This document shows positions 20,601 through 55,738 of a DNA stretch of 64,000 bases, one piece after another (positions within the stretch are counted from its first letter, which is position 1; each line of letters starts with the position of its first letter). A model generated the notes under the pieces. It was not told the DNA's origin. It ran no database searches and worked only from the letters and a program-made list of their open reading frames with translations. The DNA lies in assembly GCA_004794785.1 (NCBI GenBank), contig SJOL01007269.1, forward strand, positions 1 through 64,000, in the 5' to 3' direction. This stretch comes from Opisthorchis felineus. Taxonomy: Eukaryota > Platyhelminthes > Trematoda > Opisthorchiida > Opisthorchiidae. Both the position numbers and the translations under genes were made by a program.

Positions 20601-23600
20601 CGGGTTACTTTCTCGGACAGAAGCCACGTCGAGTTGGGTAAGTCGTTTGTACACGAATTCCCACATTAACCCTTGATTAAGTCTCAAGTAGGCTGCCGGT
20701 TGTGCTTTGTGGACAAAAGCAATTCGGGATGATTTTGAACCCAGCTCATCTCTCCCCAGGAGAAAATCATCGTAATATAAAGTGTAATTGTGAGGACTAG
20801 TCTACGTCAAAGGGAAAAACACCGGCTTTGAGTTTCACTCTTATTGTAGATCATCAGCAGTGCATGTGTTTGGCGAGAGTGGGATTTGAACTCCATTCAC
20901 CTGACACCCAAGGCGAGCGAGTTAAGCCCGCGGGGACCGCATGTGAATTTTCATGTCTGAACTGACGAATTTGTTCAATCTTGAGCTATGAGCGTAGGTT
21001 TGCTGGATGACCTTGTACTTGCTGTGGCCGTGCCGACTGATCACCTAACTTTCAGTTCTTCCGGGCCAGGTGGTTTCCCTCTCTCCCTGTCTCTCTTTCT
21101 GTTAGGCACTATCCGTGTGATTCTAACGTCATTCCTTTATCATGGCTCTCGTACCGATACAGCTACAATCTATTTATTTCTAGGCATTGCTTCTAAAGGC
21201 CCTTACGACGCTGGTACATATTACACCGTACCAACGTCTCCAGCCGGGTCTCCTGACGAGCCTGTTACCGGCTTTACGTCAACTTCTCCATCGTACCAGC
21301 GCGGACACCCGTGTGGTCGATTTGCGTGCTGGTTGCCTCAATTTGCTTGCCAACATTGTTGGGAAGGTGCCGGGTCCTTTGCTTGAAGTAAGAACCAGTT
21401 ACATAGTTCTGCTACTTACTCCTGCACTTATACCGGAGAGTGGCTTTTTGCATATTTACTAACCAAGTAGTTGTTTTATTTCAACCAGCAGTCAAAGGGT
21501 TTTGAATTTTTACCTTTGACATGTTTCCCTAAGAATTCAGGTTGTATCCTGATGGCATTCAATTGGGACTGTAGGGGAGAGCGGTGTTTCTAAAACCGAT
21601 AAAGCAAACGTTGTTAGCTGCGGATTGTCATATACTTAGTATTCGAATAAAATACTGTTTCAATCCTCTGAGTAGGTATGAACTCAGAAACATGTTTTGG
21701 CTGGCTCGCAGTGTGGAACTCCGCTGTTGCTTCAGAATCTTTCTATCGACTTTCGAAGTGCATTTTGCCACCGAATTGTCTCCAGAGCTAGTGTGTACAT
21801 CGGAATGATTGGGCACTGCCGTTCCTAAGCACTGTACTGGGCGAATTCCCTTACGTGAAAACGTCCATCCTAGTGGTCCTTATGAAACGTGCTCTACAGA
21901 GTAGCAGGAAACTCGGGACGTGATGAAAACAGCATAATATCCCTCTGCTCTATATCATCAATTAATCTACGGGAAAATTTCCTATCCCAGGAATTCACAT
22001 CATCCCAGGGTCGTTATTGAAGACAACAGCGTTTTCCTAAAACTGCATGTTGAATACGGGAGTTTTCAGTGGCATGTGTCTTCGTGCAACACCTTTGCTG
22101 CCCAAGCCCACACAGTATGACACCACTGCGTGTGTTTCTAGGAGGTATCCACGAGGTTGAGTTGAACTCTGATGTATTAGGAAGAAATCAAACTGCTCTC
22201 TACTCTTTCCATTGGACACACAAAGGCTTTCTCGCAGTTCTCTTTGGGTTATCGCCCCAAAGCTGCCACTTTTGCTATTTACTGCGTCATACCAAAGTTA
22301 TATAGAGGTATACTATGGAGTGTAATTGTCATTTCTACGTTATTTGGCCCTTGTGCTTACATCATGTTCTTGTCTACGGAAACGACTTAATTCCAATAGG
22401 CAGGAACTTGCCACTTTTTGAGGTCCTTTTTAGCCCACATTCTATCGGAAATTGATAATCCTATGAATAGTGTCCTTTACATTTGCTAGTAAATGATCGT
22501 TCCCACTGTCTGTGAATACCAAAAATCGTTTCAGTTACAGTTTGTGAGAATTCAGTTTATCAGGCTAATGTAGCGTCAGAAAGACCCATCCTTGGGTGCC
22601 ATGTGTATCGAACTACAGTACGGGCCATACTGTCGCGTGGTCGTGATTTACCGGCGGAGGTCTTTGACTGTAGACGTCTCAGAATCACAGCTAGAATTGA
22701 CTTGCATCGGTAAATTTGCTACTATCTCTTCAGCAGACGGTTGGACTTTTAGGTTTCTCACCTGTGGGATGCATACGGCTCGGTCATATGCTGCGAGTTG
22801 TTGTCTACCAAGCCGGGGGTTGTTTTCCAAACCTAATTCAGAATGCTGCAAAGCGAAACGTTGCCAAGTATGTTGCGACAAAAGTGAACGAGGTAGGTTA
22901 CGAAAATCCTGGGGGTCGTCAGTGCTGTTTGATTTTCATGGAGGTGTCCTTGTAATCCGTGTGCTTTCGTAAAGACGTTGCACGATGTAGCTGCTAACCG
23001 ATGTCAGTGTCGTTTGTTCTGTCAGAAGTAATCAAATGTAAGTTTGCTTTTGACACCGGATAACGTCACAAGGCACAAGCCGTCAGTCTCTGTCCCTTGC
23101 GTTGTCATTTTGTCCTTGTCGGCAGAGAAGACATCCTGGCTGCAAACACTTAATCGGGACATAAAAACTTCTTCAAATGCTGTCGCTACTACTTCAGGAA
23201 GTTGTTAATCGAAAAGTCGCTTTGTTTGACCGATATGCATCAACCGACACAATTTCTCTAAGTTTGATCGAGTTATTGTTAGTTGAGTGAGTAAAGGAAA
23301 CCTGCCTTCTCCCGGTAGGTTATCTTGCCGAAATTCACTGTTTTTCTGACACGCTTGAAGTAGGAAATTCCAACTTTACGGCATCGTTAACTTTGATGTG
23401 GTGGCTATGTCGAGGATACACAGCCGAGTAGCTCGTGAGTGACGTTAAATGGTGGAGTGCAGTTAGACGGAACGACGACTGTAACCTGGATTGGAACGCT
23501 CGACCGAAGCGTATGATGCGTGCGCCGCGGTGTTTCAACGCTTGAAATAAAAAAAATCAGCTGTATTTCGTGACAGTATCACAGCAGGACTTCAGTAAAG

Positions 23601-35826: not shown

Positions 35827-36204
35827 TCAGCGGTGTTGTTCCCTTGTCACAGCTTGTGGTGAAAGTCCAGGGCTCATATCAGACGTTTCCAAAGTGTTTT
35901 GTACTTTGAACAGGTTACAGTTGATCCCGTTTTTACTGCCTCCAAGTAGTTGGGCTAGATCCGGTTGAAATACACTTGCGTAGGATCGCTTCAGAAACGT
36001 AAGATAGGCTTGTAGACTGCGGTTGGTTGCGTCAGCCTGAGTCAGTTGGGCCCGCAATTCGGCCGAGCGTATTTCCGCCGCGTGTTCCACTTGTTCACGT
36101 TCGTTGCGAGCCTCGGCCAATTGTCTTCGTAATTCCTCGACTAGTTGTGTTTCTTTCTGATATGTTGGTGACTTTTCCCTCTCATCTCGACTGTTTTTTC
36201 GAGC
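35827..36204 (-). CDS. coiled-coil gene, last exon
   Basis: Acceptor CCGAAATTTCAG, starts [13 protein letters not shown], continues as Glu/Arg/Ala-rich coiled coil ([20 protein letters not shown]), then [20 protein letters not shown] and a non-helical tail to the TGA at 35827. Confidence 0.8.
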   Translation of the reverse strand, partial: ARKNSRDEREKSPTYQKETQLVEELRRQLAEARNEREQVEHAAEIRSAELRAQLTQADATNRSLQAYLTFLKRSYASVFQPDLAQLLGGSKNGINCNLFKVQNTLETSDMSPGLSPQAVTREQHR

Positions 36205-39200
36205 CTGAAATTTCGGAAAATATGTGTTAGTGGGTGAACCTTGTCAAGAAGGGATTTACCTGCTTTTCTACGGGTGTTTGTTCTTCAAACGAACCCGTTC
36301 CGGCCTCTTGACGGTTTTGTCTGTACATCCAACCATCTGGTCTTACTGACGCAGACTCTAGTGCTAACATCAACCTCCGGTTTTGTTTCTCTGCTTCATG
36401 TAGTTGGCGTTCGATTTCACAAAACTGGTCTTGGTTTCGTTTACGTCCATTTTCAGCCTCCTGTAAGAACGCATTATAAAAACTGATGATAGCGAACTAG
36501 TGATATGGCTTCCATTCTGTTGGGATCAAATCTCAGAAGAAGATGGTTCTACTTAAATTGCAACTCCCTCTCTCCCCAGTTTTGTCTCGATTCACATGTC
36601 CTGTGCAGGCTAACGGCCAAATACGAGGAAGTAGTATGTAGCACCTGTGCGAGCGCAGGTCATTTCCCATCACTAGTACAGCAGATGTTTTTACACGAAC
36701 GAAAATTCATCGTGCTTCGCAGTCGAACATGTCTTCCCTGAGGGTTTTTGTATCGTACTAGGCACACCCAGCTATTGCATAGAAGCTTGTCGCCGATACC
36801 AACTTCGAACAATGTACTGCGTATAGTCACTTGAAACTGGTGTTCCGGTCCAACTGCAGTGGCCTTGCTCAAGAGGGACTGCTTCCTCCCAATTAATACC
36901 AGCTCACCCTAGTCCAATGAGATTTGGCTTGAAATGAATGCTCTAGAATCGTGCTAGCTAGAACCACTGTATGGCAAGTACGTGGTTTTTAAAGCTGACG
37001 ATCATGAGTGATGGCGACGTATTCCTGGTCTGTGAAGATCTTGACATCTATTTTGATCTTAATGATTCTGAAAACTTGATATTTTAGACGTCTTCAGGGC
37101 ACATGTCAGAGATCTGCAGATTAGTGCTTAATGAATTCCAATGTAGAGGTGTTTTTTGCCCTATCGTATGAGAGTCTGATGACTCATCAGCCTGTGTTTG
37201 GATAATCTGTTGAGATAAAATGGGAACTATCTGACCAAACACTGCTGATACCGTGTGTTCAGCGTATCACCAATTTGATCAGTTACGGTCCAGATACTAT
37301 GTAATCATAGGGGTTTTACCAAGGCTAGCCGTGAACAAACAGACCAGCACTGTCCACGAGGAACGTGCTTTTATGCATCAAAATGCTCACTCGCAAGTGG
37401 GCTTGTTTCGATAACAACTCAAGTCCGTCGGCAATAGACAGCTGGTTTACACACTCTGAAGAACTGCGTCCCACACTGCGATAAGCAACGATGCATTTGA
37501 ACAGTATCTTGTACGATAGTGCCAACGTGTCTAGCTTGAAGTTGTGGGTATTTTGATTAAAGGAAACTAGCTGCCAGTTCATTACAAATATCCACAATGT
37601 TAAGCATACAGTATCCCCTCAACGTAAGATCACCTCTTCGGGTCTTGAAGTTGATACCTTCTGATACACAACCTCCACACTTCCCAACTCTTAATGTCCT
37701 TCTGACACATGACACCATTCCAACAAAAAGCAGGACGTGAGATTCGCGCACTCGTTTTTACGCCAATCCGTTATCGGAGCGCTGGCATAAAAGAAACCTC
37801 CCTTGGTGTTTGGGAATCCTACAATGTGAGTCTCATTTGTATAGGAAACAGTGCTAAGTGTCCCTGTAAAGACCACTTTTTAGAATAATCCATCTGTGAC
37901 CAACCCTTTTGATTGGTTAGGTTCCTCCTGAAAAAAAAACAAAGTATCGAAAGGGATCATCTTGGCTGAGTTTCTGAAGGTGGGTCTTTAGGCAGGATAT
38001 AATAGCATACTACACCAATCGGCGAGAAGTGATCTCTTGTAATGTTTAACCCTTTAAAGAGACAATCGTACATTTGCTCTCTCGAGGCAGATCACTTCAA
38101 AGGACCTACTAAAAGCAGTCTCTTTTGCGCTTCAAGGGCCAAACAAAGTGGTCTTTTTTAAAGAATACCCTCTCCAGAGATGAACAGGTAAAATCGCATA
38201 ACCATGACTTCAGCTGCTGGATGTCGCTGTCACACAAAATCTTGAACTAGCATATCGCTTGATGACGTCACACAATACACATCAGTGTCACCACCTGTCG
38301 GACGTTCAATATGGTTGTGTAGACAGTCACGATTCTAGAAGTTCAATCACTAGACAGAACGCCCACAACAGCATGCGAATATTTACACCTAGATCGCGCA
38401 CAACTTCGAACCGAAAGAAGAATCTCTGGTACAATTCCAGGTGAACTCTGTAGAATGTTGGCTTCTTAACGGCGTTTTACCATAGTGACGATTTCCATGG
38501 ACTACAAGTGTGACCTATGCAGGTGTTATAAAGCAGGACCACAATAGTAACGAATTGATTTTTGGGTATGAATATGTTATTATCAAAATTCAGGGTACCT
38601 ACACCGTTGTTTATTCGTGCTCCCTCTTTTGGCGACACCACCAACCAGAGGAGTTGTTCCACGAGCGGTCTTACTCCGAAGGGGACTACCGTATGTGTGC
38701 ACGATCCTTACCTTGTAGCCGAAAGAATATAGGACAATGTTTTGGGCGAAGTGCCATAACTGAACTTTGATTGACCTAAATATTGTCCAAATTGTGAATA
38801 TTCAAGACAGCCAGTCACCTGTAGGAGACCTGGGTTTTGTCATCCTGGCACCCCATGGTTTCATGATTTTGTGTTGTTTGTCTTTCATACCATGGTAACC
38901 TGACTGACTCACTTGAAGTTGTTCCGTCAGAACACGTAATTTATGAGCCTGTGCGTCTGCATCTCGTTGTTGGTCGTGCAGCATCGATTCACACTGCATT
39001 AAACTGGTACGCAATTCTTCCATTTCGTGCTCCGCCGTTGCCATACGCCGTTCGCATTTGGCTGCGATATCTCGAAGGTGTTCATTTTCCTGAATAAAGA
39101 AAGGATTTTGTGTTTATTTGATTGCATACGAAACGACTCGAATTTACAAGCACCGTTGTGCGATACAACGCTGTCTAACCGCATTGTCTCAGCTTATTTG

Positions 39201-42200: not shown

Positions 42201-45200
42201 GGCAGTTGTCGATCCGACTCAGTTTGTTGGTTAGCCTTTTCATAATTCATCGCCAGGTCATACACTGTCCACCTTTCGGTCACTTCCACTCAGCACAGGG
42301 CTGGGCGAAAAGAGCTCTGCGAGGCAGACGGTCTTCTGGCATGCGGACTACATGTCCTAACCAGCGTAACCTATTAAGCGTGAGTAATTCACCTATCGCG
42401 GGACGGTTCCTTCTTCCTAGGACTATCTGCCGTACCTCAGCAGTACTAATCCGATGTTCACACCAGACCCAGCCAATGCTTCGGAGACACCGATTGTCAA
42501 ACATCACCACGTCCAGTGGTGAACTTAGGCGAAAGCTTACCGTATACTAGTGCACGCCCACGCATACAGAGCCCTCATTAGGGACATAGATTTGCGTGGG
42601 CTATCACAGTCGCTGGTTGCTGATATGGCCTTCCTGGCAGCAATAAGATTTTCTGATCTGGACCTCGGATGGCATGGACAAACAGTTCTAAAAGCTGAGA
42701 GCATAGCTTCATTCATTCGCTTCCATTCAACCTCCATTCAATCATCGTCATCTGCATGACTGCGTTTCCAGTAGCATTCCAGCCAGGTCAGCTCGATACG
42801 CTTGAACTACTGAAACCCATCGAAGTTGATTTATGGAACTGCTCTGCTTTGGCACACGTAATACTGATGGAATATGAAGTGATAACCGGGCTCGCACAAT
42901 GGCATGATCAGAGTCAAGTTGCGTACCCCAGAAAGGACGATAATCTGTAACAGAGGTTCTCCATCGTTAACTGATAGCCACATTATCCAATTGAGTCCAT
43001 GACTACCTTGCGGTTGGTGGCCTGCAAGTAACTCGATGCGAGTATTTGTGTTGGAAGCTCGTACTGGCCAGGAACAGACGATTATCTGAACGTAGCTGAA
43101 GCAGTCGCTTTCTGTTATCCGTACGCTGAGCATCTACCCCAAATCTACCATCTAGTTGGCCAACTTGAGCATTTATATCACCCGCTAGGATCCCAGTATC
43201 AGTCCTTCTTGCTGACCNNNNNNNNNNNNNNNNNNNNNNNNNNNNNNNNNNNNNNNNNNNNNNNNNNNNNNNNNNNNNNNNNNNNNNNNNNNNNNNNNNN
43301 NNNNNNNNNNNNNNNNNNNNNNNNNNNNNNNNNNNNNNNNNNNNNNNNNNNNNNNNNNNNNNNNNNNNNNNNNNNNNNNNNNNNNNNNNNNNNNNNNNNN
43401 NNNNNNNNNNNNNNNNNNNNNNNNNNNNNNNNNNNNNNNNNNNNNNNNNNNNNNNNNNNNNNNNNNNNNNNNNNNNNNNNNNNNNNNNNNNNNNNNNNNN
43501 NNNNNNNNNNNNNNNNNNNNNNNNNNNNNNNNNNNNNNNNNNNNNNNNNNNNNNNNNNNNNNNNNNNNNNNNNNNNNNNNNNNNNNNNNNNNNNNNNNNN
43601 CTTTCGAGTAGCACTTTATGAAGCATTACGATGTAATATGAAAATCATTCAGCTGTGGCACCATTTCGTTGCGTAGCTACCTGTAATCTGAATGAAGCAC
43701 GAGGGTTCCGCTACTGCCATGTTACCCAAGCGTAGACAGAAGTATTCGAAAAGCCTGGATTCGAATCACAGGCCTTCCTACCAGTGGCTCCGCGCCTGAA
43801 TTATCTCGAGTGCGTTTCCATCTCACATTGAATTTCATTGAATCTTCTCCATCCAGTAGTAGTACTCAATGTGGTCTACCTTATGTTCCACGACCAACTT
43901 GAACAGAACCTGACCTTCACACAGTATTCCATTTTTCACCTGGTAGCAGAATTTTATTTTGAAATAGTAATTCTCAGAAGCACCACCCACTATCAGCTTG
44001 CCTATCAAGGTAACCTGGATTTCATCCTGCAAGAGATACGCATTAAAGGCGATAGATCTGATGCACGAGCGCCACTGATGCACGATTGGGCCATTTCTGC
44101 CAATGTCATTAACCATCGGTGAGTTGAGTCCCGGATTCCACATCCAGGGAAGCGGCAGTTGTCTACCCGACTCAGTTTGTTGGTTAGCCTTTTCATAATT
44201 CATTGCCAGGTCATACACCTTCCACCTCCCGGTCGCTTCTACTTAGCACAGGGCTGGGTGAAAAGAGCTCTGCGAGGCAGACGGTCTTCTGGCATGCGGA
44301 GTACATGTCCTAACCAGCGTAACTTATTAAGCGTGAGTAATTCACCTATCGCGGGAGGGTTCCTTCTTCCTAGGACCATCTGGCGTACCTCGGCAGTACT
44401 AGTCCGATGTTCACACCAGGCCCAGCCAATGCTTCGGAGACACCGATTGTCAAACATCACCACGTCCAATGGTGAACTTGGGCGAAAGCTTGCCGTATAC
44501 TAGTGCACGCCCACGCATACAGAGCCCTCATTAGGGATATAGATTTGCGTGCGCTATCACAGTCGCTGGTTGCTAATATGGCCTTCCTGGCAGCAATAAT
44601 ATCTTCTGATCTGGACGACGGATGGCTTGGACAAACAGTTCTAAAAGCTGAGAGCATAGCTTCATTCATTCGCTTCCATTCAACCTCCAAGCAATCTTCG
44701 TCATCTGCATGACTGCGTTTCCAGTAGCTTTCCAGCCAGGTCAGCTCGATACGCTTGAACTACTGAAACCCATCGAAGTTCATTTACGGAACTCCTCTGC
44801 TTTGGCACACGTAATACTGATGGAAAATGAAGTGATAACCGGGCTCGCACAATGGCATGATCAGAGTCAAGTTGCGTACCCCAGAAAGGACGATAATCTG
44901 TAACAGAGGTTCTTCATCGTTAACTGATAGCCACATTATCCATTTGAGTCCATGAATACCTTGCGGTTGGTGGCTTGCAAGTAACTCGGTGCGAGTATTT
45001 GTGTTGGAAGCTCGTACTGGTCAGGAACAGACGATTATCTGCATATAGCTGAAGCAGTCGCTTTCTGTTATCCGTACGCTGAGCATCTACCCCAAATCTA
45101 CCATCTAGTTGGCCAACTTGAGCATTTATGTCACCCGCTAGGATCCCAGTATCAGTCCTTCTTGCTGACCGAAACAGTCGTGACAGATGTTGATTAAACC

Positions 45201-48200
45201 CGTCCTTCTCAGTCCCAGGACTGCTGTCTGTCCGGGCGTATGCTGATACGACTAATAAACATCGTTTACCGCGCCGACCTGCATTGATGTTAATTGAGCC
45301 AGACAGCCGCACAGCGCAAAGACGACTGTTTACTGGGACCCAGTTCAGTAAGGCACTTTCAGCCTTGGGGCTGAGTGCAACTCCCACACTGTAGACACCA
45401 CGAGCCATTGCGTCAAGATCACCGGACACCCGAAGAGTGAACTGTGGAACATCTGAGCTCGTCCTAAGCGGCTTGAGGTGCATGACCGAAGTGGGATCCT
45501 GCATGCGTGTTTCGGAAACACAACATACATCGACAGATAGGGAAAGCAAGGTTTTAACAAAAAATGCCTGGTGCCCAATTCGACATAGAGTACGGACGTT
45601 AAAGGCTGCAGTGTAGATCAGATGTTTTGAGGTTAGAAGGTGATTATTTTGGTTTATTTTTTCTGGGCGATGGTCTAGACACGGAACAGTGAAATAGGGG
45701 ACTGGCAGATTAGTTGACCGCATTGCATCGTTCGATGGGTGAGGTGTTGTAGAGGAAGACCGGTGATTGAAGAGCTGCAAGGGTGAATGATGATGATGAA
45801 GCGGATGTAGTTGAAATACCCCATCTCGAGCCTTTGACTCAAAAGTCTGACCCACAAGGCAGTGAGAGTATGTCGGGTTTCGTTCGTGGACCCTGTCCCT
45901 AGCCTCCGACTCGAAAGTCTGACCCGCGAGGCAGCGGTTGTTGGGGTTCTTTTGAGGGACCATTCCTGGAGCCAACGACTTGATAGTCTGACCCACTTGG
46001 CTGTGGAGGGCGGTCTGTCCCGAGGAAGCAGGGACCAAGACATTACTGCCTCATTTCTAGTGCAGCTGCACAAAGTAGGTGCATTTTGAACAGTACCAGA
46101 CTCTGTTTTTAAAAGTCTTTCGACCGTACTGAATAATGCGCTGGTGGTCACGGTAAACCGTTGAACGATCGGAGTATGCGGTTTTTAGGGCGGACCTTTT
46201 CTAACCCGTCCTTCCTCGGGGAAAGGACGAAAGCATCGCTGCATCCATAATTATGGACATGCTGGCCGCCATGGAAGCACCTTACTACCTCCTGTCGTCC
46301 TACCGCAGAGGGCAGTACGACTTTACCTCCAGACTGCCTCGTAATACGATTACTCGCAGTACGCAGACTGCTTGGTCTTCGTCGGGCTGCTCCCCGTTGG
46401 CCTTTCTGACATGGTTGAACCTTTAGGAACTGAGTTCCAGCCAGTATAGCCCGCAAGATCATTGTAGCACAGAAGCACGACCATTACTACAAGTGACAAC
46501 CTTAGGTCCGGTCTACGGGTGAATGGTTAGTAGTATACGACTAGCTTGTATCTAGCTAGAATCTTTCAACCATGGGTCCAGTTGCAGCTTCCCGTCGAGT
46601 GACAACTTCTGAGAGTAGGGTTCGTATGACTGACTTGCAGGATATTTTTCCTTCAGAGCGGAGTAATAACTCTTGTTGTCTCAAGCCACCAAAATGTGAT
46701 ATTTTAATGGAGCGCTGCAACGTTTGAGATCACAAGAACCGCATTGGTCGATAGGGCGTAGGTAGACATTACGATCTGTGGCACTGATATGATTCACCGT
46801 ATCTTACTTGACTGTACGAAGATTTGCCGTTGTGTTTAGCGGTCAGTGTGTTGAAATATTGGTAACTCGCGTGTGTTTACTGGTGGGTGATCAGATGGCC
46901 GTTGATCTGTTCGCTGAGCCTGGCAATTGGCCTGCAAATATTTCGTGTCCAGTCGAGAAGACATCGTCATTGGGCATTTAAGTGCTTAAAGAGGAAGTAG
47001 CCGCTCAACTGCGCACTGACGATGTCTCCTCAACTGGGGACGAAACATTTGCAAGCCAATTGCCAGGCTCGAGGAACAGATTAACGGCCGTCTGATCCGA
47101 TGGCTTCAGACAAGAAGCTTCTCAGCGTCATATGGCTGATGGTCGTTAGGGAAATTGTTCTCTGGGTGTTCTTCTGGGGTCTCGAAGTTTTTCAATGTCG
47201 GGTAGACAACCACAGGCTGGACAAACGATCGCAGCCAGGCTTTGCTTCGCTTGACTATGTTAGTTTTCTGTTTTCTAGCACCCCAGCTCTATCAGGTCGC
47301 TCTCCAGACACAAACAACTTGCAGCATTGGACGGGACTCGTCTGTCTGCGTCCACAACCGATTCGCTCAGCAATTGAAATAGTATTTCTGACGGTCCTGC
47401 CAAACTTGTGTACGTCATACTGTACGAACTTCGACCTAATCCTTCAGGTGAGCACCACCGCACTGGCCGATGAATCGTATTTACAATTGATTCGACCGTC
47501 TCACTGGCGACGTCGGCATACTGACCAAGGCTTTTTCTGCACATTTCCATCCACTGACACGAAATTTGTCATGAAAATTCCCAAGATTCGACTTCTCCTG
47601 CACACTGCTTTAGGTTGGCTTGTAGCTAATTTATCCAAATTAGTCGAAAAAAAGAATCACCGTGGATATCCTTTGGACATGTAGTTATCATGTCATGGAT
47701 AGAACGAATTTGGCTCGGGAATCTATCACTCCGAACCGAACGGATGCTCAACTCTTGCTACGGTCGGGTTCGAGATACCTCAGTGGTTAAGACGCCAACT
47801 TGCGGACCAGAAGGTCCTCAGCACCTCGACTGCTCCTCTCTAGGATTGGGCAACCTGGCAGTATCCCGGTCCTTATGGCTGCCTTCGTTGGGATGGCAGG
47901 TAGGCACCGAAAGGGTGCTACAGTTGAAGGACCACTTCTTACTATGGTCTAGTAAACTTGCTGCTAATGTTGGCATCTACGGATTTTCATTTCTTTTTAA
48001 AGTGCACTGATTCACAAGTGAATCTCTCGGATAGCCTGTATGCTACCAATTCTGCTGACTAGCGTCAGCACGGTATCTCATGTGGGAGACTTTTTCTACA
48101 ATCTTGGCGCATCTAATATCACTATCGGTGTGATTTCCTCCGGAGCCGAGTTCTTCCGTTTTACGTAGTCGGCGTTTTCATGTTGTCTTCCTCATTCTCT

Positions 48201-51200
48201 TGACCACTCGTAGCTTATCACGGCTTCTACTGATTAAACTGTTCGGATTACCTCAAACTGCCTCTTCCACTCTGTTGTTCCTTTGCATTTTATCTCAGGC
48301 TTCAACTGTAAGACGATCTTGAGTTGTGCTTTTCTCTCTTCTGAACTCCAATTTTTCCGTTGGTCAACCTTCAAAGTGGTACACCGTCCGACGAAGTTTA
48401 TTGTTGTCAGCATTATCAGGCTTTGCCTCATTTCCAAATTTTATCGATTAGTTTCGGGGCCCCAATTCGACTGACCCACAATACTGCAAAGTAAAGTTGA
48501 TTTAGATTAACCCAAATCACAAATATAAGGACACTGATATGCTCAACTCACTTCCTGCAATTTCTCAAGGTGCGCATCCCTCGAAGAAGCTCTTCTGGTA
48601 GAATTATCCCTGGGAGTTCTTTGTTTGGAGGCGGAAGATGGTGAGTAGGAACGTGAGGCACCATCACCCACATTTCCTCCAACATGTTCATTATCCTCTC
48701 TAGCATAACGTCTATCTACAACCTGAAGGCAAGACATGAATAGGTTTCATTCACTCGAAACCTACTGCTTTCTCGGATCGGATTTTGACAAGTCTTTGAA
48801 CGTACCTCTTCACAGGGCGTGATTCTGCCATCTGTCTTTCCAAGGCGCTCAAGGAGATCTTTGAGCGATTTTTCCGCCTGATCAGCACGCTTTTTCTGAG
48901 CCCGGGCAGCACGTTTTAAAGCCTCTTTTGTTTCACTCAGCTGTGCGACTGTTGCAACAGAACTCTCCAGCCGTGTTTGTAACGTAGCACGTTCTTCTGC
49001 CAGACGACACTCCAAACCGCGTACTTGAGTGGATAGTCTTGATAGTGGAATATAAAAGTGGAATTGACTAAAGAAGCACATTACTCACAAGGCTTCTGAA
49101 TATCACGAACCAGGGACTCGATTGGATTCAGTTGATTCTCCGGTCAAAGCCAAACTAGTGATTTTTACAAATTATTTGAGTTTACGATCGAAAAATAGTT
49201 GTGGGTACATATGAAAACAATACATTAGTTCGGAATCGATTTTTACCCTTCATTTTCCAGTATGTTGCAAGGCGTCCGTCTATTATATCCGAACAGGCAT
49301 TGTATTCATCCACAGTACAACACCAGTAGGGAAGGGCATTCCATATCATCAGCTTGTAATTTTACGCCCCTTGTTTAACTGACCCATCCAGATAACCTGT
49401 CCAATCTGAAGCAGTAGGGTCTCAGGCTGAGAATACATGTCGACTATTGCTCCAAGTTTATCTGTTAGAAAGACGTACTCGCCTCAGTACTAATTCTCCA
49501 TCTTTGTCCTGAATCAAGTTGAATTCGCAATTAAATTTTTCAAGGTGTTCAGCGAGAAATTTTTTGACTGTATGTGATGGCATTTTTGAGGGAAATCAGT
49601 ATACAGCAGGTGACTTCTCATGTATTGTTAGATAACAGCTTCGACCTATCATCTAGTCCTAGTGAATGACTCATATTTGCTCAAAGGTGATGATACTCTC
49701 AAGCCATCTGAAAAGCATCGTTCTAAGTTTTTTTCCTACTGCATTCATGTTCATAGATGTGATAAACTATACGCACTACTTGTAACAACAGGACCTTGGA
49801 ATATCGGGAAAGAAAAGGCTGTAGATTTGTAGTGTAATATCAGGAGGTTGACCTGTGTGTTTCGTCCACCGTGGTGCAATGCACCTTCGTTTGTGCCAGG
49901 TTTCATTTTGCATGGTCCATTCGACGGATCACAAAATAGCCCACTTTGTACCCAATATTGTATCACTTAATGAACAAATCACCACTCAGACTGCGTATTC
50001 GCCTCACTTCGGTACAATCAACTTTGCCACTAGAACGTCCAGCTGTCCGTTCGTTTTCTCACTGCCGCCCACTTTTAGTCGCTGATTTCTCTGTGCACAT
50101 GCAATCTTCCGTCTTAGGGAACGGACTTGCCATAGTGGATTGCTTCCAGACGAAACAATACTACCTTCGGTCATGGTCGTCGTCAGCTGATTTTCACTGA
50201 TCATAATACTCCTAATGTCTCCTGATTAAACACAGCGATGATTTCAGTTTAGGTTGATCATAGGGTTGAGAGTAGAGTGCTTAGATCCACTGAAAATGGT
50301 GGCAAAACATAAGATAGTCACCACAGATAAATCCTTCACTACAAAGTGCTTTTTTTAGGTAAGGTGTACACTTAGTTTCTTACCGATTACATTCGGATTC
50401 ACGTTGGCGTAGTTCGCGCTGCAAATGGGCCCGAACTGTCTCCAGTGATTCAGTAACGGACGTGAATCTTGCACTTTCGTTCTGTTGCGAACCCAATCGC
50501 TTCTGTGTTTCTTCCAGTTCGACGGCTATGTGGGAAGGTAGGTATAGGTATCATTGGGCGCGATGTTCACATTTAAAACAACGTTGTACAACTCCGTTGG
50601 TCAAATGTGTAAAACCCACTCACTTGTTCTATCCAGTGATTCTTTCAGACGATGAATTTCCGACTGCATTGCGTTCTCGCGACTTGAGACATTTTGCAGT
50701 TTGTGGGTCAAAAATCGTTCCTGTTGTTGCTTGACACTGGATGCCCACCGACACAGTTCACGGCCTGCTCGAACAGCAACTTCTCCATGGAGAACCAGGT
50801 CATCTTTTGGCTGATTTAGGCGATTCATATCACGGGTTGTCACTTGTCTACCCTCAGCCATTATCTAAAAGCCAAAGCGTATAGAGTTATGTTTGCTGCT
50901 GCTTCAACCCACTTAGTTTGACAAAAAAGTATGTGAGCGACGCTTCGAACGGGTCACATTGTTCGTAATGCAGTACTCATAAGGTTGCTGAAAATTCTTC
51001 GATAGCCCACGACCGGTTTCGCCCTTCTTGGGGCTCATCAGGCAGGCGCAGTCCCCGAGTTTCCGTCAACCTTATGTTCTACTTGAACCCAAATTGGACT
51101 GATTTCGACAAATACACTCATTTGCAAATCAATTTGGTTTTCACGGGAGACTCAAGTGAGTCTCTCGTTTATGATGTTCTTCAACTGAATGTGCTGCACA

Positions 51201-54200
51201 CAGGCCGCCTCATGTTTCAGTTGGTACGATATTCGAGATATCGCAGTATATTTTCATGAAGGAAACTACTCACAAGGTTGCTGAAAACTCTTCGACAGCC
51301 CACGACCGGTTTCGCCCTTCTTGGGGCTCATCAGGTAGGCGCAGTCCCCGAGTTTCCGTCAACCTTATGTTCTACTTGAACCCAAATTGGACTGATTTCG
51401 ACAAATACACTCATTTGCAAATCAATTTGGTTTTCACGGGAGACTCAAGTGAGTCTCTCGTTTATGATGTTCTTCAACTGAATGTGCTGCACACAGGCCG
51501 CCTCATGTTTCAGTTGGTACGATATTCGAGATATCGCAGTATATTTTCATGAAGGAAACTACTCACAAGGTTGCTGAAAACTCTTCGACAGCCCACGACC
51601 GGTTTCGCCCTTCTTGGGGCTCATCAGGTAGGCGCAGTCCCCGAGTTTCCGTCAACCTTATGTTCTACTTGAACCCAAATTGGACTGATTTCGACAAATA
51701 CACTCATTTGCAAATCAATTTGGTTTTCACGGGAGACTCAAGTGAGTCTCTCGTTTATGATGTTCTTCAACTGAATGTGCTGCACACAGGCCGCCTCATG
51801 TTTCAGTTGGTACGATATTCGAGATATCGCAGTATATTTTCATGAAGGAAACTACTCACAAGGTTGCTGAAAACTCTTCGACAGCCCACGACCGGTTTCG
51901 CCCTTCTTGGGGCTCATCAGGTAGGCGCAGTCCCCGAGTTTCCGTCAACCTTATGTTCTACTTGAACCCAAATTGGACTGATTTCGACAAATACACTCAT
52001 TTGCAAATCAATTTGGTTTTCACGGGAGACTCAAGTGAGTCTCTCGTTTATGATGTTCTTCAACTGAATGTGCTGCACACAGGCCGCCTCATGTTTCAGT
52101 TGGTACGATATTCGAGATATCGCAGTATATTTTCATGAAGGAAACTACTCACAAGGTTGCTGAAAACTCTTCGACAGCCCACGACCGGTTTCGCCCTTCT
52201 TGGGGCTCATCAGGTAGGCGCAGTCCCCGAGTTTCCGTCAACCTTATGTTCTACTTGAACCCAAATTGGACTGATTTCGACAAATACACTCATTTGCAAA
52301 TCAATTTGGTTTTCACGGGAGACTCAAGTGAGTCTCTCGTTTATGATGTTCTTCAACTGAATGTGCTGCACACAGGCCGCCTCATGTTTCAGTTGGTACG
52401 ATATTCGAGATATCGCAGTATATTTTCATGAAGGAAACTACTCACAAGGTTGCTGAAAACTCTTCGACAGCCCACGACCGGTTTCGCCCTTCTTGGGGCT
52501 CATCAGGTAGGCGCAGTCCCCGAGTTTCCGTCAACCTTATGTTCTACTTGAACCCAAATTGGACTGATTTCGACAAATACACTCATTTGCAAATCAATTT
52601 GGTTTTCACGGGAGACTCAAGTGAGTCTCTCGTTTATGATGTTCTTCAACTGAATGTGCTGCACACAGGCCGCCTCATGTTTCAGTTGGTACGATATTCG
52701 AGATATCGCAGTATATTTTCATGAAGGAAACTACTCACAAGGTTGCTGAAAACTCTTCGACAGCCCACGACCGGTTTCGCCCTTCTTGGGGCTCATCAGG
52801 TAGGCGCAGTCCCCGAGTTTCCGTCAACCTTATGTTCTACTTGAACCCAAATTGGACTGATTTCGACAAATACACTCATTTGCAAATCAATTTGGTTTTC
52901 ACGGGAGACTCAAGTGAGTCTCTCGTTTATGATGTTCTTCAACTGAATGTGCTGCACACAGGCCGCCTCATGTTTCAGTTGGTACGATATTCGAGATATC
53001 GCAGTATATTTTCATGAAGGAAACTACTCACAAGGTTGCTGAAAACTCTTCGACAGCCCACGACCGGTTTCGCCCTTCTTGGGGCTCATCAGGTAGGCGC
53101 AGTCCCCGAGTTTCCGTCAACCTTATGTTCTACTTGAACCCAAATTGGACTGATTTCGACAAATACACTCATTTGCAAATCAATTTGGTTTTCACGGGAG
53201 ACTCAAGTGAGTCTCTCGTTTATGATGTTCTTCAACTGAATGTGCTGCACACAGGCCGCCTCATGTTTCAGTTGGTACGATATTCGAGATATCGCAGTAT
53301 ATTTTCATGAAGGAAACTACTCACAAGGTTGCTGAAAACTCTTCGACAGCCCACGACCGGTTTCGCCCTTCTTGGGGCTCATCAGGTAGGCGCAGTCCCC
53401 GAGTTTCCGTCAACCTTATGTTCTACTTGAACCCAAATTGGACTGATTTCGACAAATACACTCATTTGCAAATCAATTTGGTTTTCACGGGAGACTCAAG
53501 TGAGTCTCTCGTTTATGATGTTCTTCAACTGAATGTGCTGCACACAGGCCGCCTCATGTTTCAGTTGGTACGATATTCGAGATATCGCAGTATATTTTCA
53601 TGAAGGAAACTACTCACAAGGTTGCTGAAAACTCTTCGACAGCCCACGACCGGTTTCGCCCTTCTTGGGGCTCATCAGGTAGGCGCAGTCCCCGAGTTTC
53701 CGTCAATCTTATGTTCTACATTGTTCCCATTGTTCTTGCTTCTGTTTTGTGAAGGGCGAGGCTACTTGGCCTAGCGCTTTTGATGATCAGGTGTATCTTG
53801 AAGACGATTTTACTGGGTGTTTGGCGTACAGATATATTTCCATGTTGGGAATATAAAATCCGGCCATTAGGGTTTATTACAGAAACATGCATAAATAGGA
53901 TACTGCTTATGCAATCATACCGTGATGAGTCTGCTTACCTCATCGAGGTACTGTTCCACGCTACGAGCTGCTCTGGCAACGTGTGCAATCGCATTCTCCA
54001 CGTCATTCGCCCATTGTTCCATCACGCTTGTGGTCCACAGAGCCCCGTCTTCCATCCCATCGAGGTCTATATTTTCAGTGTTGTGACTACGTTTCTGTGA
54101 GAGTTCCCCAGCAAATCTTACTGGTCTCGACTCCCTCACAGGTTCCATCGACTGTCGTGACGCACAAAGCCTTCGATCATTTTCTGGTAATTCGTCTCTC

Positions 54201-55738
54201 TCGTCATACCTTGTTGCTTCACGAAGAACTGGGTCCTAAAGAAATCAGTCGGAAAGGATAGTTAGTAGACTGACATCATTCTTGACCATCAGAACGTTTC
54301 AAGGTTTGTGTCGTCGAACATAATTCGAACTAATTTATGGAAATAACAGCGCCATCAGATTATGGTGCTCCACGTTTTCAATGAGAAGTTGTACGGCAAT
54401 ATGACGGGGTAGCTATTAAATCAGAATACACAAGCCTATAAGGCGTCCCACAACAACGTAGAAGTCAAAAACCTGAAAACGGAACCAAAGAGCTTTCGAT
54501 GTTTCACCACCTGTGTCTCTGAACTTTCGGCCAAGTCACGTGAGATTTTCGAACGGAAAACTTTAAGCAACGTTCGATGGACGAACTGCTGTTGAACTAT
54601 AGCTTTCACTGACTTGAGCATGTGCACCAATGAAATTGGACCGATTTTCTCCAAATATTTATCGGGCGGGAGTGTGCTGTAGGAGGTGTGAAATAATAAC
54701 AAAATTGAAGCATAAAATCCATGACAGGCAAGCTCGACCCCGTTGGTGCTTGTTCTTTGTTTGAATATGGACTTGAGACGCGATAATTCATTGTCTGTGG
54801 ACATTGGCAAACGACTGAGCCACGTGAGTGACACGTGCTAATTAAAAATGCAGTTTCCAATGCATAACGGACGTTTTTCTGTTTGATACCTATAAAATGG
54901 TCCGGAAATACGGTCGTGTGGTTTCTACTCATTGGACAGAATTCTTGTGGATGTAACGATATACACTGCATGCAATTTATAACGGATTATGAGGTGTAGT
55001 ACCCACGTGAGTCATCCTTGTGTCTGGGATCTTACGAGGGTATAGAATCCGAATTCGAACGTTACGAATTCTGTCATTTGTTTGATGTCATTCTAGAGAG
55101 CTGACCTATCCGGGATTTTTTCTTCCGTGTACTCACTTGTGCTCCAATCCTTAGCGCTGAACTTTCGGTGATTTCGCACCGATTGTTTAGATTCCTTAGA
55201 AATCGATCTGCTCATCTACACGTTCGGACATTTGTGCAAAGGATTTGCATACGAGACGTAAGTTAGGGCTAGGCAAACAGACTTTCGGATGTGTTTTTTT
55301 CCAGATGAGTATGTAATAACCTGATTGGATGGCACTTAGCTGTAAATCCTGAACCACTTTCAGTCTGGCCATCTATAGTTTCGATGTACAGGCACGCCTA
55401 CCCTGCGAGAAATCACACATTTGTGGGACCTACGTCGTTACTATCATGCTATCATGCAAAAAATTTTGAACTCTGGTCCCGGTAAGCCGGCTAATAATCA
55501 CCCGTAGGATCATCTGACCAGAAAAACGATACTTCCTCTTAGTACGTAAGTTTTCCTTCTTGTTTCATGAATGCTGTTGGTGTAGTGTTGATGGTAATAT
55601 TTCTTTATGTACTTTAGCATGAGCTTACCTCCAATGGATCGTCCGGATGATGAATAATTGAATCGGCTGATGTGCTCCTTCGTGGATACATGACGTTCAC
55701 CTTCCGAGTTGCTGGTCTTGTAGCATACGCAAACTTTC
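35827..55738 (-). CDS. multi-exon coiled-coil protein (partial, 9 exons)
   Basis: The exons in transcript order are 55738-55629, 54235-53939, 50864-50624, 50525-50384, 49037-48806, 48722-48552, 39089-38913, 36460-36260 and 36204-35827 (stop). All have AG/GT boundaries on the minus strand and all join in phase, giving about 650 residues. The first two exons encode a charged region ([12 protein letters not shown]) and a possible helical segment ([20 protein letters not shown]). From the third exon on, the text is heptad-rich coiled coil ([68 protein letters not shown]), with a Ser/Arg-rich insert at 48552-48722. The C-terminus has [20 protein letters not shown] do not recognise the family; it resembles large centrosomal or ciliary coiled-coil proteins only in general character. 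The start codon is not identified. Its introns carry the RTE duplication and the hammerhead array. Confidence 0.75.
36260..36460 (-). CDS. coiled-coil gene exon
   Basis: Acceptor GCGTTCTTACAG, donor GTAAAT. 67 codons: [39 protein letters not shown], then [13 protein letters not shown]. Phase 0 at both ends; the intron to the last exon is only 55 bases. Confidence 0.8.
36951..37015 (+). repeat. 3' fragment of the 57.9/59.6-kb repeat family
   Basis: GCTAGAACCACTGTATGGCAAGTACG and TTTTTAAAGCTGACGATCATGAG match the 3' ends of the copies at 57911 and 59620, including the GAT-type tail. 5'-truncated. Confidence 0.6.
38913..39089 (-). CDS. coiled-coil gene exon
   Basis: Acceptor CTTTATTCAG, donor GTGAGT. 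59 codons of strong coiled coil: [51 protein letters not shown]. Phase 0 at both ends. Confidence 0.85.
39090..41662 (-). other. intron portion with nothing recognised
   Basis: A (TAA)n microsatellite lies at about 40946-40962. Frames are short and motif-free. Confidence 0.35.
41663..43217 (-). mobile_element. RTE-like element, duplicate copy A (internally deleted), cut by assembly gap
   Basis: Nearly identical to 43601-45170 in the same order and orientation, offset 1938-1953 bases. On the minus strand it carries the end of the endonuclease, the linker ([20 protein letters not shown] at about 42737-42680), then directly the C-terminal block ([31 protein letters not shown] at 42510-42290) and the 3' end, followed by a SINE. 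The RT palm is absent. The N-run at 43218 hides its 5' part. Confidence 0.88.
41709..41872 (-). mobile_element. tRNA-derived SINE abutting RTE copy A
   Basis: Diverged reverse copy: TTCAGCTGTGGTACC at the 3' end, TTCGAATCAC box B, ending TATCTCGAG. It directly follows the RTE 3' end and is duplicated together with it. Confidence 0.8.
43218..43600. other. assembly gap (383 N)
   Basis: Run of N between two near-identical direct copies. Frames predicted across it are meaningless. Confidence 1.
43648..43810 (-). mobile_element. tRNA-derived SINE abutting RTE copy B
   Basis: The counterpart of the SINE at 41709-41872, differing by only a few bases. It shares the same junction with the RTE 3' end. 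Confidence 0.8.
44920..46038 (-). CDS. APE-type endonuclease of RTE-like element (372 codons)
   Basis: Metal-dependent apurinic-endonuclease-like nuclease that nicks target DNA for reverse transcription. Residues about 1-75 contain three related GQTxxS repeats, residues 76-135 are His/Pro/Ser-rich, and the nuclease begins at about 140 with [20 protein letters not shown] (catalytic Glu region), [31 protein letters not shown] (Asp-x-Asn) and a degraded W-x-Q-x-D-like block at the C-terminus follow in order. The terminal SDH motif lies just beyond the stop in another frame (44857-44865), so a frameshift has separated it. The RT that should follow is deleted. Confidence 0.85.
   Translation of the reverse strand: MVPASSGQTALHSQVGQTIKSLAPGMVPQKNPNNRCLAGQTFESEARDRVHERNPTYSHCLVGQTFESKARDGVFQLHPLHHHHSPLQLFNHRSSSTTPHPSNDAMRSTNLPVPYFTVPCLDHRPEKINQNNHLLTSKHLIYTAAFNVRTLCRIGHQAFFVKTLLSLSVDVCCVSETRMQDPTSVMHLKPLRTSSDVPQFTLRVSGDLDAMARGVYSVGVALSPKAESALLNWVPVNSRLCAVRLSGSININAGRRGKRCLLVVSAYARTDSSPGTEKDGFNQHLSRLFRSARRTDTGILAGDINAQVGQLDGRFGVDAQRTDNRKRLLQLYADNRLFLTSTSFQHKYSHRVTCKPPTARYSWTQMDNVAIS
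45800..46010 (-). repeat. three ~70-base tandem repeats in the RTE 5' region
   Basis: GGGTCAGACTATCAAGTCGT, GGGTCAGACTTTCGAGTCGG and GGGTCAGACTTTTGAGTCAA begin three units 69-72 bases apart, translating to GQTIKS, GQTFES and GQTFES. Tandem units at the 5' end of a LINE are often promoter-related; here they are also in frame with the endonuclease. Confidence 0.75.
46889..47097. repeat. foldback: 81-bp inverted repeat around a 47-base loop
   Basis: 46889-46969 and 47017-47097 are reverse complements at roughly 85-88% identity, both ending in GATCAGA(T/C)GGCCGTT. No transposase, TIR/TSD pattern or gene was recognised. The 194-codon plus frame starting at 47100 has no known domain. Confidence 0.88.
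47098..47769. other. open region without recognised gene
   Basis: A 194-codon plus frame (47100-47684) overlaps an 91-codon minus frame. Neither shows a motif, repeat match or splice context that I can defend. Confidence 0.3.
47770..47930 (+). mobile_element. tRNA-derived SINE lacking box B
   Basis: Head TCGAGATACCTCAGTGGTTAAG and body are present, but the GTGGTTCGAACCC segment is deleted (GGTCC runs straight into TCAGCACCTCGAC). It cannot use the normal type 2 Pol III promoter. Confidence 0.85.
48552..48722 (-). CDS. coiled-coil gene exon, Ser/Arg-rich
   Basis: Acceptor TGCCTTCAG, donor GTGAGT. 57 codons: [50 protein letters not shown] probable disordered, phosphorylatable linker between coiled-coil segments. 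Phase 0 at both ends. Confidence 0.75.
48806..49037 (-). CDS. coiled-coil gene exon
   Basis: Acceptor CCACTATCAAG, donor GTACGT. The text is [56 protein letters not shown]. The single leading base completes the Arg codon left by exon 50525-50384, which supports this acceptor over another AG 14 bases downstream. Confidence 0.8.
49038..50383 (-). other. intron, nothing recognised
   Basis: No SINE, RTE or hammerhead similarity and no exon-like frame was noted. Confidence 0.35.
50384..50525 (-). CDS. coiled-coil gene exon
   Basis: Acceptor CCTTCCCACATAG, donor GTAAGA. Coiled-coil text [40 protein letters not shown]. Starts with two bases of a Thr codon and ends with two bases of an Arg codon, both completed by the neighbours. 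Confidence 0.8.
50624..50864 (-). CDS. coiled-coil gene exon next to the ribozyme intron
   Basis: Acceptor CTTTGGCTTTTAG, donor GTGAGT. It encodes [38 protein letters not shown] and [11 protein letters not shown]. Its 3' splice acceptor lies only about 100 bases from the hammerhead array in the upstream intron. Confidence 0.8.
50981..51073 (-). ncRNA. hammerhead ribozyme, type I, copy 1 (last in transcript)
   Basis: On the minus strand: CTGATGA (51035-51041), stem II GCCC/GGGC with 6-base loop, GAAA (51017-51020), stem III ACCGGT (51012-51017), cleavage base C at 51011. Predicted cleavage falls between 51011 and 51010. Stem I is GCCTGC/GTGGGC here; the substitution at 51043 turns an A-U pair into a G-U wobble, so pairing is retained. 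The outer arms (GGTTG / CAACC-type) extend stem I beyond an internal loop. Confidence 0.88.
51274..53417 (-). ncRNA. eight identical type I hammerhead ribozymes (copies 2-9)
   Basis: The 93-base motifs start at 51274, 51567, 51860, 52153, 52446, 52739, 53032 and 53325. In the first: CTGATGA 51328-51334, GAAA 51310-51313, cleavage between 51304 and 51303. All 15 conserved core positions of the hammerhead consensus are present. Stem I has an inner 6-bp helix (GCCTAC/GTGGGC), an asymmetric internal loop, then GAAACTC/GAGTTTTC and GGTTG/CAACC. Stem III is three base pairs with no loop, so one molecule cannot close it as a hairpin; two neighbouring copies could pair through the self-complementary ACCGGT. 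Short stem III hammerheads of Penelope-like elements are known to act as dimers. Confidence 0.9.
53618..53710 (-). ncRNA. hammerhead ribozyme, copy 10 (first in transcript)
   Basis: Core identical to copies 2-9, with cleavage predicted between 53648 and 53647. The only change is C to T at 53707 in the outermost stem I arm. It lies about 230 bases after the 5' splice site of the intron, so it would be the first ribozyme transcribed. Confidence 0.88.
53939..54235 (-). CDS. coiled-coil gene exon upstream of the ribozyme intron
   Basis: Acceptor CTGATTTCTTTAG, donor GTAAGC. 99 codons: [65 protein letters not shown]. Phase 0 at both ends, joining 50864 in phase across the array. Confidence 0.8.
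54436..54834 (-). CDS. unplaced 132-codon open frame, possibly an exon
   Basis: The minus frame has protein-like helical text: [62 protein letters not shown] possible donor (TTTTCAG/GTTTTT near 54470) and acceptors near 54824-54842 exist, but the phase does not fit between the exons 55738-55629 and 54235-53939, which join each other in phase without it. It may belong to another gene, a pseudogene or an alternative exon. I do not recognise the family. Confidence 0.4.
   Translation of the reverse strand: MSLTWLSRLPMSTDNELSRLKSIFKQRTSTNGVELACHGFYASILLLFHTSYSTLPPDKYLEKIGPISLVHMLKSVKAIVQQQFVHRTLLKVFRSKISRDLAESSETQVVKHRKLFGSVFRFLTSTLLWDAL
55629..55738 (-). CDS. coiled-coil gene, most upstream exon recognised
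   Basis: Acceptor CATCCCTACCAG, donor GTAAGC. The frame that joins the next exon reads [36 protein letters not shown]. It begins with two bases of a codon, so a further upstream exon is expected but was not found. Confidence 0.6.

Follow-up and report, generated by a model that had tools for sequence, protein, structure and literature searches.

A candidate family of dispersed, non-coding hammerhead retrozymes in Opisthorchis felineus, probably inserted through target-primed reverse transcription

The window analysed here is a 64,000-nucleotide stretch of Opisthorchis felineus DNA (contig SJOL01007269.1, positions 1 to 64,000), in which a first-pass annotation had described a tandem array of ten complete hammerhead ribozymes on the minus strand at 50965-53717. 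Tandem Repeats Finder (TRF) assigns the array a period of 293 bp and 9.4 copies (50974-53719). The hammerhead motif CTGATGA-N14-GAAA occurs 12 times in the 64-kb window compared with 0.07 occurrences expected in shuffled sequence, which rules out chance as the source of the motif, and ten of these occurrences lie in the array, on the minus strand and 293 bp apart, as the annotation had it. The limits it gave proved exact, with the 9-bp sequence ACATTGTTC adjoining the insert on both sides. Judged from its sequence, this insert is one of at least 79 scattered copies of a non-coding retrozyme family, where a local array had been proposed, and it consists of the following features.

50965-53717, minus strand (the ribozyme strand): retrozyme insertion made of type I hammerhead units, TRF period 293, bracketed by a 9-bp direct duplication
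50956-50964: target-site duplication copy ACATTGTTC, reading GAACAATGT on the ribozyme strand and adjoining the 3' end of the insert
53718-53726: target-site duplication copy ACATTGTTC, adjoining the 5' end on the ribozyme strand
50965-51058, minus strand: edge specific to this locus, 3' on the ribozyme strand, of the 307-bp subfamily, with one complete hammerhead core and the terminus ...GCATTAC at phase ~46 (start point A, defined below)
50992-51058, minus strand: hammerhead copy 1, an edge copy with variants of its own (RF02275, 35.9 bits)
51060-53620 (limits approximate), minus strand: interior units equal to the genome-wide 293-bp unit, probably gap-filled and of uncertain copy number
53629-53693, minus strand: hammerhead copy 10, at the 5' edge of the ribozyme strand (RF02275, 35.2 bits); its sequence equals the consensus, so it is less surely locus-specific than copy 1

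An Rfam search, which the annotation had put forward as a check, returned RF02275 (Hammerhead_HH9) as the best match at all ten array motifs, with 35.2-35.9 bits and E-values of 1e-6 to 1.7e-6 when the array alone was searched and 2.3e-5 to 3.7e-5 for the whole window. That much of the check came out as expected; the scores of 35-36 bits nevertheless stay under the gathering score of 52, and because of this curated cut-off the array motif is not assigned to RF02275. The Rfam scan of the whole window returned no family at its gathering score. The HH9 alignment of the array motifs covers the model from its first to its last position, with the bases of the stem III loop missing, and the order of elements (CUGAUGA ... 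GAAA ... cleavage C, with stems I and II and the open end in stem I) is that of a type I hammerhead. Motif and alignment together bear out the type I core and its minus-strand orientation, and the predicted cut at 51011/51010 is correctly placed. A further motif in the window, at 20833-20857 on the minus strand, is without a proper stem II and was treated as chance.

The annotation had also drawn stem III as ACC/GGT, and here the structure needs correcting, as this stem has no loop and a single copy cannot form it in the shape drawn. The sequence ACCGGU is self-complementary and leaves no room for loop bases within one copy, and the ribozyme is therefore predicted to act in pairs. In keeping with this prediction, the best fold of a single ribozyme (-23.6 kcal/mol) is non-catalytic, and the unconstrained co-fold of two ribozymes is a double hammerhead in which stems I and III are shared (-51.3 kcal/mol). 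Such dimer-only action would allow multimers to be cut and yet spare a circle carrying one ribozyme.

In order to place the insert among its relatives, 630 Mb of genome in 1848 contigs were searched; the searches were ranked by similarity and only the best candidates were scored, so that the copies described here are well-matching ones and not a random sample. With the 293-bp unit as query, 227 matches were obtained among the candidates scored, with 100% identity on dozens of contigs. A second subfamily, with a 307-bp unit and the same ribozyme (loci L048-L086), was reached by using as query an older element elsewhere in the window:

18300-18680, plus strand: older decayed two-unit relative, with a complete motif at 18618-18642 and a degenerate motif upstream

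This relative reaches 27.5 bits at 18600-18674 in the hammerhead search of the whole window and for the most part shares 72-85% identity with the other genomic sequences it matches. For each subfamily 39 further loci were fetched (78), and the window insert was joined to the first set, giving 40 + 39 = 79 inserts. The two units differ at 2 of 102 columns in the ribozyme segment and at 49 of 209 in the remainder, and the low divergence of the ribozyme segment is as expected if the ribozyme were under selection. The insert ends of the 307-bp subfamily behave as those of the 293-bp subfamily do.

The properties of the family are those given for metazoan retrozymes without long terminal repeats (non-LTR retrozymes): the hammerhead lies in tandem units within the range of 150-450 bp (293 and 307 bp), the insertions are dispersed and carry target duplications longer than 4 bp, they are non-coding, and the GC content of 45% (2-kb windows) lies below the 50% taken as the retrozyme limit. 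The ribozyme strand of the insert contains no frame of 110 residues and the opposite strand only stop-to-stop frames of 125 residues; a frame for a reverse transcriptase with a GIY-YIG nuclease, as in Penelope-like elements, was not found in the insert. Plant LTR retrozymes, with type III hammerheads in the LTRs and 4-bp duplications, do not match the type I order and the 9-bp duplication seen here. The retrozyme-like nature that the annotation had suggested is thus upheld by the dispersed family and its target duplications.

Exact duplications of at least 9 bp surround the whole composite insert in 12 of 31 N-free inserts of the first set and 11 of 30 of the second (23/61), compared with 0.11% and 0%, respectively, of mismatched flank pairs sharing an exact stretch of that length. 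Their median length is 12 bp among the 25 inserts with at least 8 bp. Furthermore, the sequence downstream of the cut follows the motif (C/G)TT(T), alike on both strands: among 50 boundaries, C or G stands at +1 in 33, and T at +2 in 33, at +3 in 39 and at +4 in 28. Because both strands show the same motif, the boundaries suggest that one nuclease specificity would account for both cuts.

We consider it very probable that the middles of the arrays are mostly a product of assembly, real ends having been kept and an unresolved centre filled with the commonest unit. Among the 26 arrays of at least 700 bp in the 293-bp set, 24 match the unit perfectly beyond 300 bp from either edge, the exceptions (L018 and L024) having deeper mismatches confined to the 3' half and reaching up to ~650 bp in; in the window array, all mismatches lie within 100 bp of an edge. 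Interiors are clean even at L015, L018, L036 and L044, at each of which an edge window reaches only 73-77% identity with the unit, and a middle stretch is 100% identical to one or the other unit in 24/25 and 23/23 arrays of at least 800 bp in the two sets. The left edge of the window array is 96.2% identical to the 307-bp unit compared with 91.3% to the 293-bp unit, and its interior is the 293-bp unit, which is the pattern expected from a gap closer. A single N stands at the array edge or within 3 bp of it at seven loci of the first set. The published O. felineus assembly (684 Mb, 13,781 scaffolds) was, as its description states, built from Illumina inserts of 180 and 270 bp with GapCloser (PMC6530080), and is the probable source of this DNA, a link that we presume. 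Gap filling would touch the interiors alone, however; each locus has its own ends, duplications and inverted pieces, the true array length may still approach the gap estimate, and this account is compatible with a retrozyme origin. What it does affect is the claim of ten identical copies: ten copies at 50965-53717 are not established, and a recent amplification read from 100% unit identity was rejected because the uniform interiors resemble filled gaps. As a warning, a ribozyme array that appears perfect in a short-read assembly may be the work of a gap filler. At one locus (L077:1006-2394, ribozyme strand) the 307-bp unit switches to and from the 293-bp unit inside a single array, probably a chimeric gap fill.

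The insert ends, which lie outside the doubtful interiors, were mapped by phase, phase 1 being the first base 3' of the ribozyme cut. Two windows were defined, A at 37-60 (~52) and B at 190-208 in the 293-bp unit or 204-222 in the 307-bp unit (~200/214), roughly 150-160 nt apart. The 3' ends fall in A or B in 29 of 34 cases in the 293-bp set and 27 of 34 in the 307-bp set (56 of 68 readable ends). At the 5' side, 26/40 and 23/39 inserts (49/79) carry an inverted piece, scored from a length of at least 18 nt, six of them being shorter than 30 nt and possibly chance; the outer end of the piece maps to A or B in 19/26 and 18/23 cases (37/49). The 5' ends without an inverted piece are unclustered, with 1/12 and 1/11 in A or B. 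Where both ends could be classed, opposite points were used in 22 of 24 inserts (10 A then B, 12 B then A, 1 A-A and 1 B-B; Fisher p = 9e-5), and the rule holds within the first family taken alone (p = 0.007). Since 307-type ends placed on the 293-bp unit stop where the two units part (phases 37-39 and 194), all 79 inserts were remapped with both units, giving 55/68 3' ends, 37/51 outer ends and 3/21 5' ends without inversion in A or B, and opposite points in 21/23 inserts (p = 1.1e-4), or 18/20 (p = 0.001) when only inverted pieces of at least 30 nt are counted. The junction between inverted and direct parts often has a few shared bases. The two ends of an insert agree in subfamily in 43 of 46 typed inserts (3 of 49 were untypable), an agreement of little weight because the loci were picked by subfamily.

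From these footprints we propose that the family is a dispersed non-coding retrozyme with a predicted type I hammerhead, likely copied into its targets from circular or multimeric RNA through target-primed reverse transcription. Hammerheads acting in pairs are predicted to cleave the transcripts of tandem units, and the released units would be circularised (~293 or ~307 nt), recutting of a single-hammerhead circle being presumably poor. An enzyme, most likely Penelope-like, would then cut both target strands before (C/G)TT(T) and ~12 bp apart, as the motif and the duplications record, and the two exposed 3' DNA ends would prime synthesis on one common RNA, starting at A (~52) and B (~200/214). 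Of the two complementary DNAs (cDNAs), one would yield the direct array and its partner the 5' inverted piece, where the mapped end positions place them, the single common RNA being what the opposite-point rule points to, and the two cDNAs would finally be joined. The more specific version of this proposal, namely one circle with two start points about half a circle apart, primed simultaneously by both ends of a staggered cut and spared by dimer-only hammerheads, has in our view about an even chance of being right. Its corollary, that every insertion is built from two cDNAs of one circle with one cut end per start point, stands likewise in the balance. The end positions turn the question of how animal retrozymes re-enter the genome, and by whose enzyme, into sharp predictions (two start points, their opposite use, one motif on both strands and a stagger of ~12 bp), which, if confirmed, would describe how a small RNA circle turns into tandem DNA.

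Regarding the template, 38 inverted pieces have their start near A or B, and 19 of these have the length needed to cross the ribozyme cut point (16 of 35 once three doubtful mappings overlapping the direct part, L053, L064 and L081, are removed); the direct part exceeds one unit in 40/40 and 36/39 inserts, although long interiors are doubtful. To judge from the mapped sequences, a cut linear monomer cannot template pieces that cross the cut point and a circle or a multimer can; the crossing pieces and the direct parts longer than one unit thus argue against the cut linear monomer. It is possible, though we think it unlikely, that the template is a linear uncut multimeric transcript on which reverse transcription begins inside, at A or B: this would also account for inserts that exceed one unit and for pieces spanning the cut point, and for a Penelope-like element studied in vitro, unprocessed RNA is reported as the main substrate (PMC11167929). 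A multimer, however, offers many A and many B points, and opposite points were used in 22 of 24 inserts; related retrozymes, moreover, are described as making abundant circles (PMC7229834). The rule is best explained by one small RNA with one A and one B common to both cDNAs, which favours the circle. At L035, L077 and L080, inverted pieces starting at A terminate no more than 5 nt from the site of ribozyme cleavage, a pattern compatible with a template that was cut and linear.

As to the mobilising enzyme, the paper that defines these retrozymes leaves the route of re-entry and the enzyme open and suggests long interspersed nuclear elements (LINEs) or Penelope-like elements (PMC7229834). In vitro, a purified Penelope-like protein of a lizard cuts and extends both strands and begins internally on its RNA, at two adjacent sites (PMC11167929), and the fluke footprints resemble such a reaction on a small RNA circle, with the opposite-point rule added. 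We are doubtful of an enzyme from a LINE-type (non-LTR) retrotransposon in place of a Penelope-like one. LINE remains are present in the window, and twin priming by LINE-1 produces 5' inversions with duplications of comparable length. The fluke 3' ends inspected, on the other hand, lie at fixed internal points without a poly(A) or simple-repeat tail, and the cut motif is the same on both strands, as with the Penelope-like protein, which is described as cutting and extending both (PMC11167929). A LINE-type endonuclease frame was seen at 44920-46050 on the minus strand, 39-67% identical to 54 proteins found, many of them from Opisthorchis, Clonorchis and Schistosoma.

Satellite DNA amplified locally through unequal crossing-over or DNA circles would fit the identical tandem units found in many arrays, but the identity of these units is itself doubtful. 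Dispersed inserts of one or two units, the target duplications, the fixed positions of the 3' ends, the scatter of the 5' ends and the inversions at the 5' side stand against it, so that this reading is highly improbable and a local satellite was rejected.

Several observations weigh against target-primed copying from circular or multimeric RNA, in addition to the Rfam scores that stay under the gathering score. A duplication of at least 9 bp is absent from 38 of the 61 N-free inserts, and the window insert itself, with TTGCTT at one boundary, has a right flank (TGACCC) that misfits the cut motif and carries no inverted piece. The windows A and B were set after the ends had been seen, those of the 307-bp family keeping the same A and a B moved by 14. 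The opposite-point test gives p = 0.055 for the second family alone; of the 42 inserts whose two ends could be read, it leaves out 18 with at least one end outside these windows (20 of 43 after remapping), and four of the 22 opposite pairs of the first mapping depend on inverted pieces shorter than 30 nt. In circular folds A and B are not strikingly structured, and the fold lends no support to an arrangement in which one helix would bring the two points opposite each other. Because the array interiors are untrustworthy, the case for an RNA circle being read round more than once depends chiefly on short inserts and on the inverted pieces. Finally, the Penelope-like precedent differs in that ribozyme mutants have no effect on insertion, with unprocessed RNA as the main substrate, and in that start sites are equal on both strands (PMC11167929).

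Two stretches flanking the insert may be exons of a host gene, and the insert would then plausibly lie in the intron between them with its ribozyme strand in sense.

53939-54235, minus strand: putative host exon, a 99-residue open frame ending at a GTAAGC donor
50604-50861, minus strand: putative next host exon, following a TTTTAG acceptor

The location in a host gene that the annotation had assumed therefore agrees with the splice-like exon ends on the minus strand, but no homologue of the joined putative exons was found in a search that considered proteins of similar length, and Pfam gave only weak matches, below the cut-off, for the putative gene. Further along the window, a coiled-coil-like frame at 35827-36240 (minus strand) is 93% identical to a hypothetical protein of O. 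viverrini, which suggests a minus-strand gene.

The annotation had considered the 293-bp array undescribed. For the family this agrees with our search of the open-licence literature, which yielded no description of it, papers on hammerheads and trematodes dealing with schistosomes or being general, and in which retrozymes combined with target-primed reverse transcription led to work on LTR elements only. The kind of element, on the other hand, is described, and platyhelminths appear among the hosts given for metazoan non-LTR retrozymes by Cervera and de la Pena (2020; PMC7229834). As characterised in the passages available, these elements share with the fluke family a type I hammerhead in each unit of ~170-400 nt, tandem arrangement, a GC content below 50% and duplications longer than 4 bp; the fluke inserts differ from that description in their inverted 5' pieces and in two fixed end points used oppositely (PMC7229834). 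The Schistosoma repeats Sm-alpha and the W-element, likened here by description alone, are trematode repeats with active type I hammerheads (PMC8490949, PMC6155905). Similar to the fluke family in the ribozyme are the hammerhead elements of newt and axolotl, which have a very weak helix III with a palindromic tetraloop cap and act as dimers (PMC7229834, PMC6155905); they differ in their amphibian hosts and units of 330-350 bp, and start points do not appear in their available descriptions. Similar in the presumed mode of insertion are the Poseidon Penelope-like elements of Anolis, which carry minimal hammerheads and, as far as they are described, start reverse transcription internally at two sites and have both strands cut and extended, the hammerhead lying upstream of the start as in the fluke element (PMC11167929). 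Poseidon elements encode a reverse transcriptase and a GIY-YIG nuclease, a frame not seen in the fluke insert, and their two start sites adjoin each other and serve both strands alike, whereas A and B lie ~150-160 nt apart and are used oppositely.

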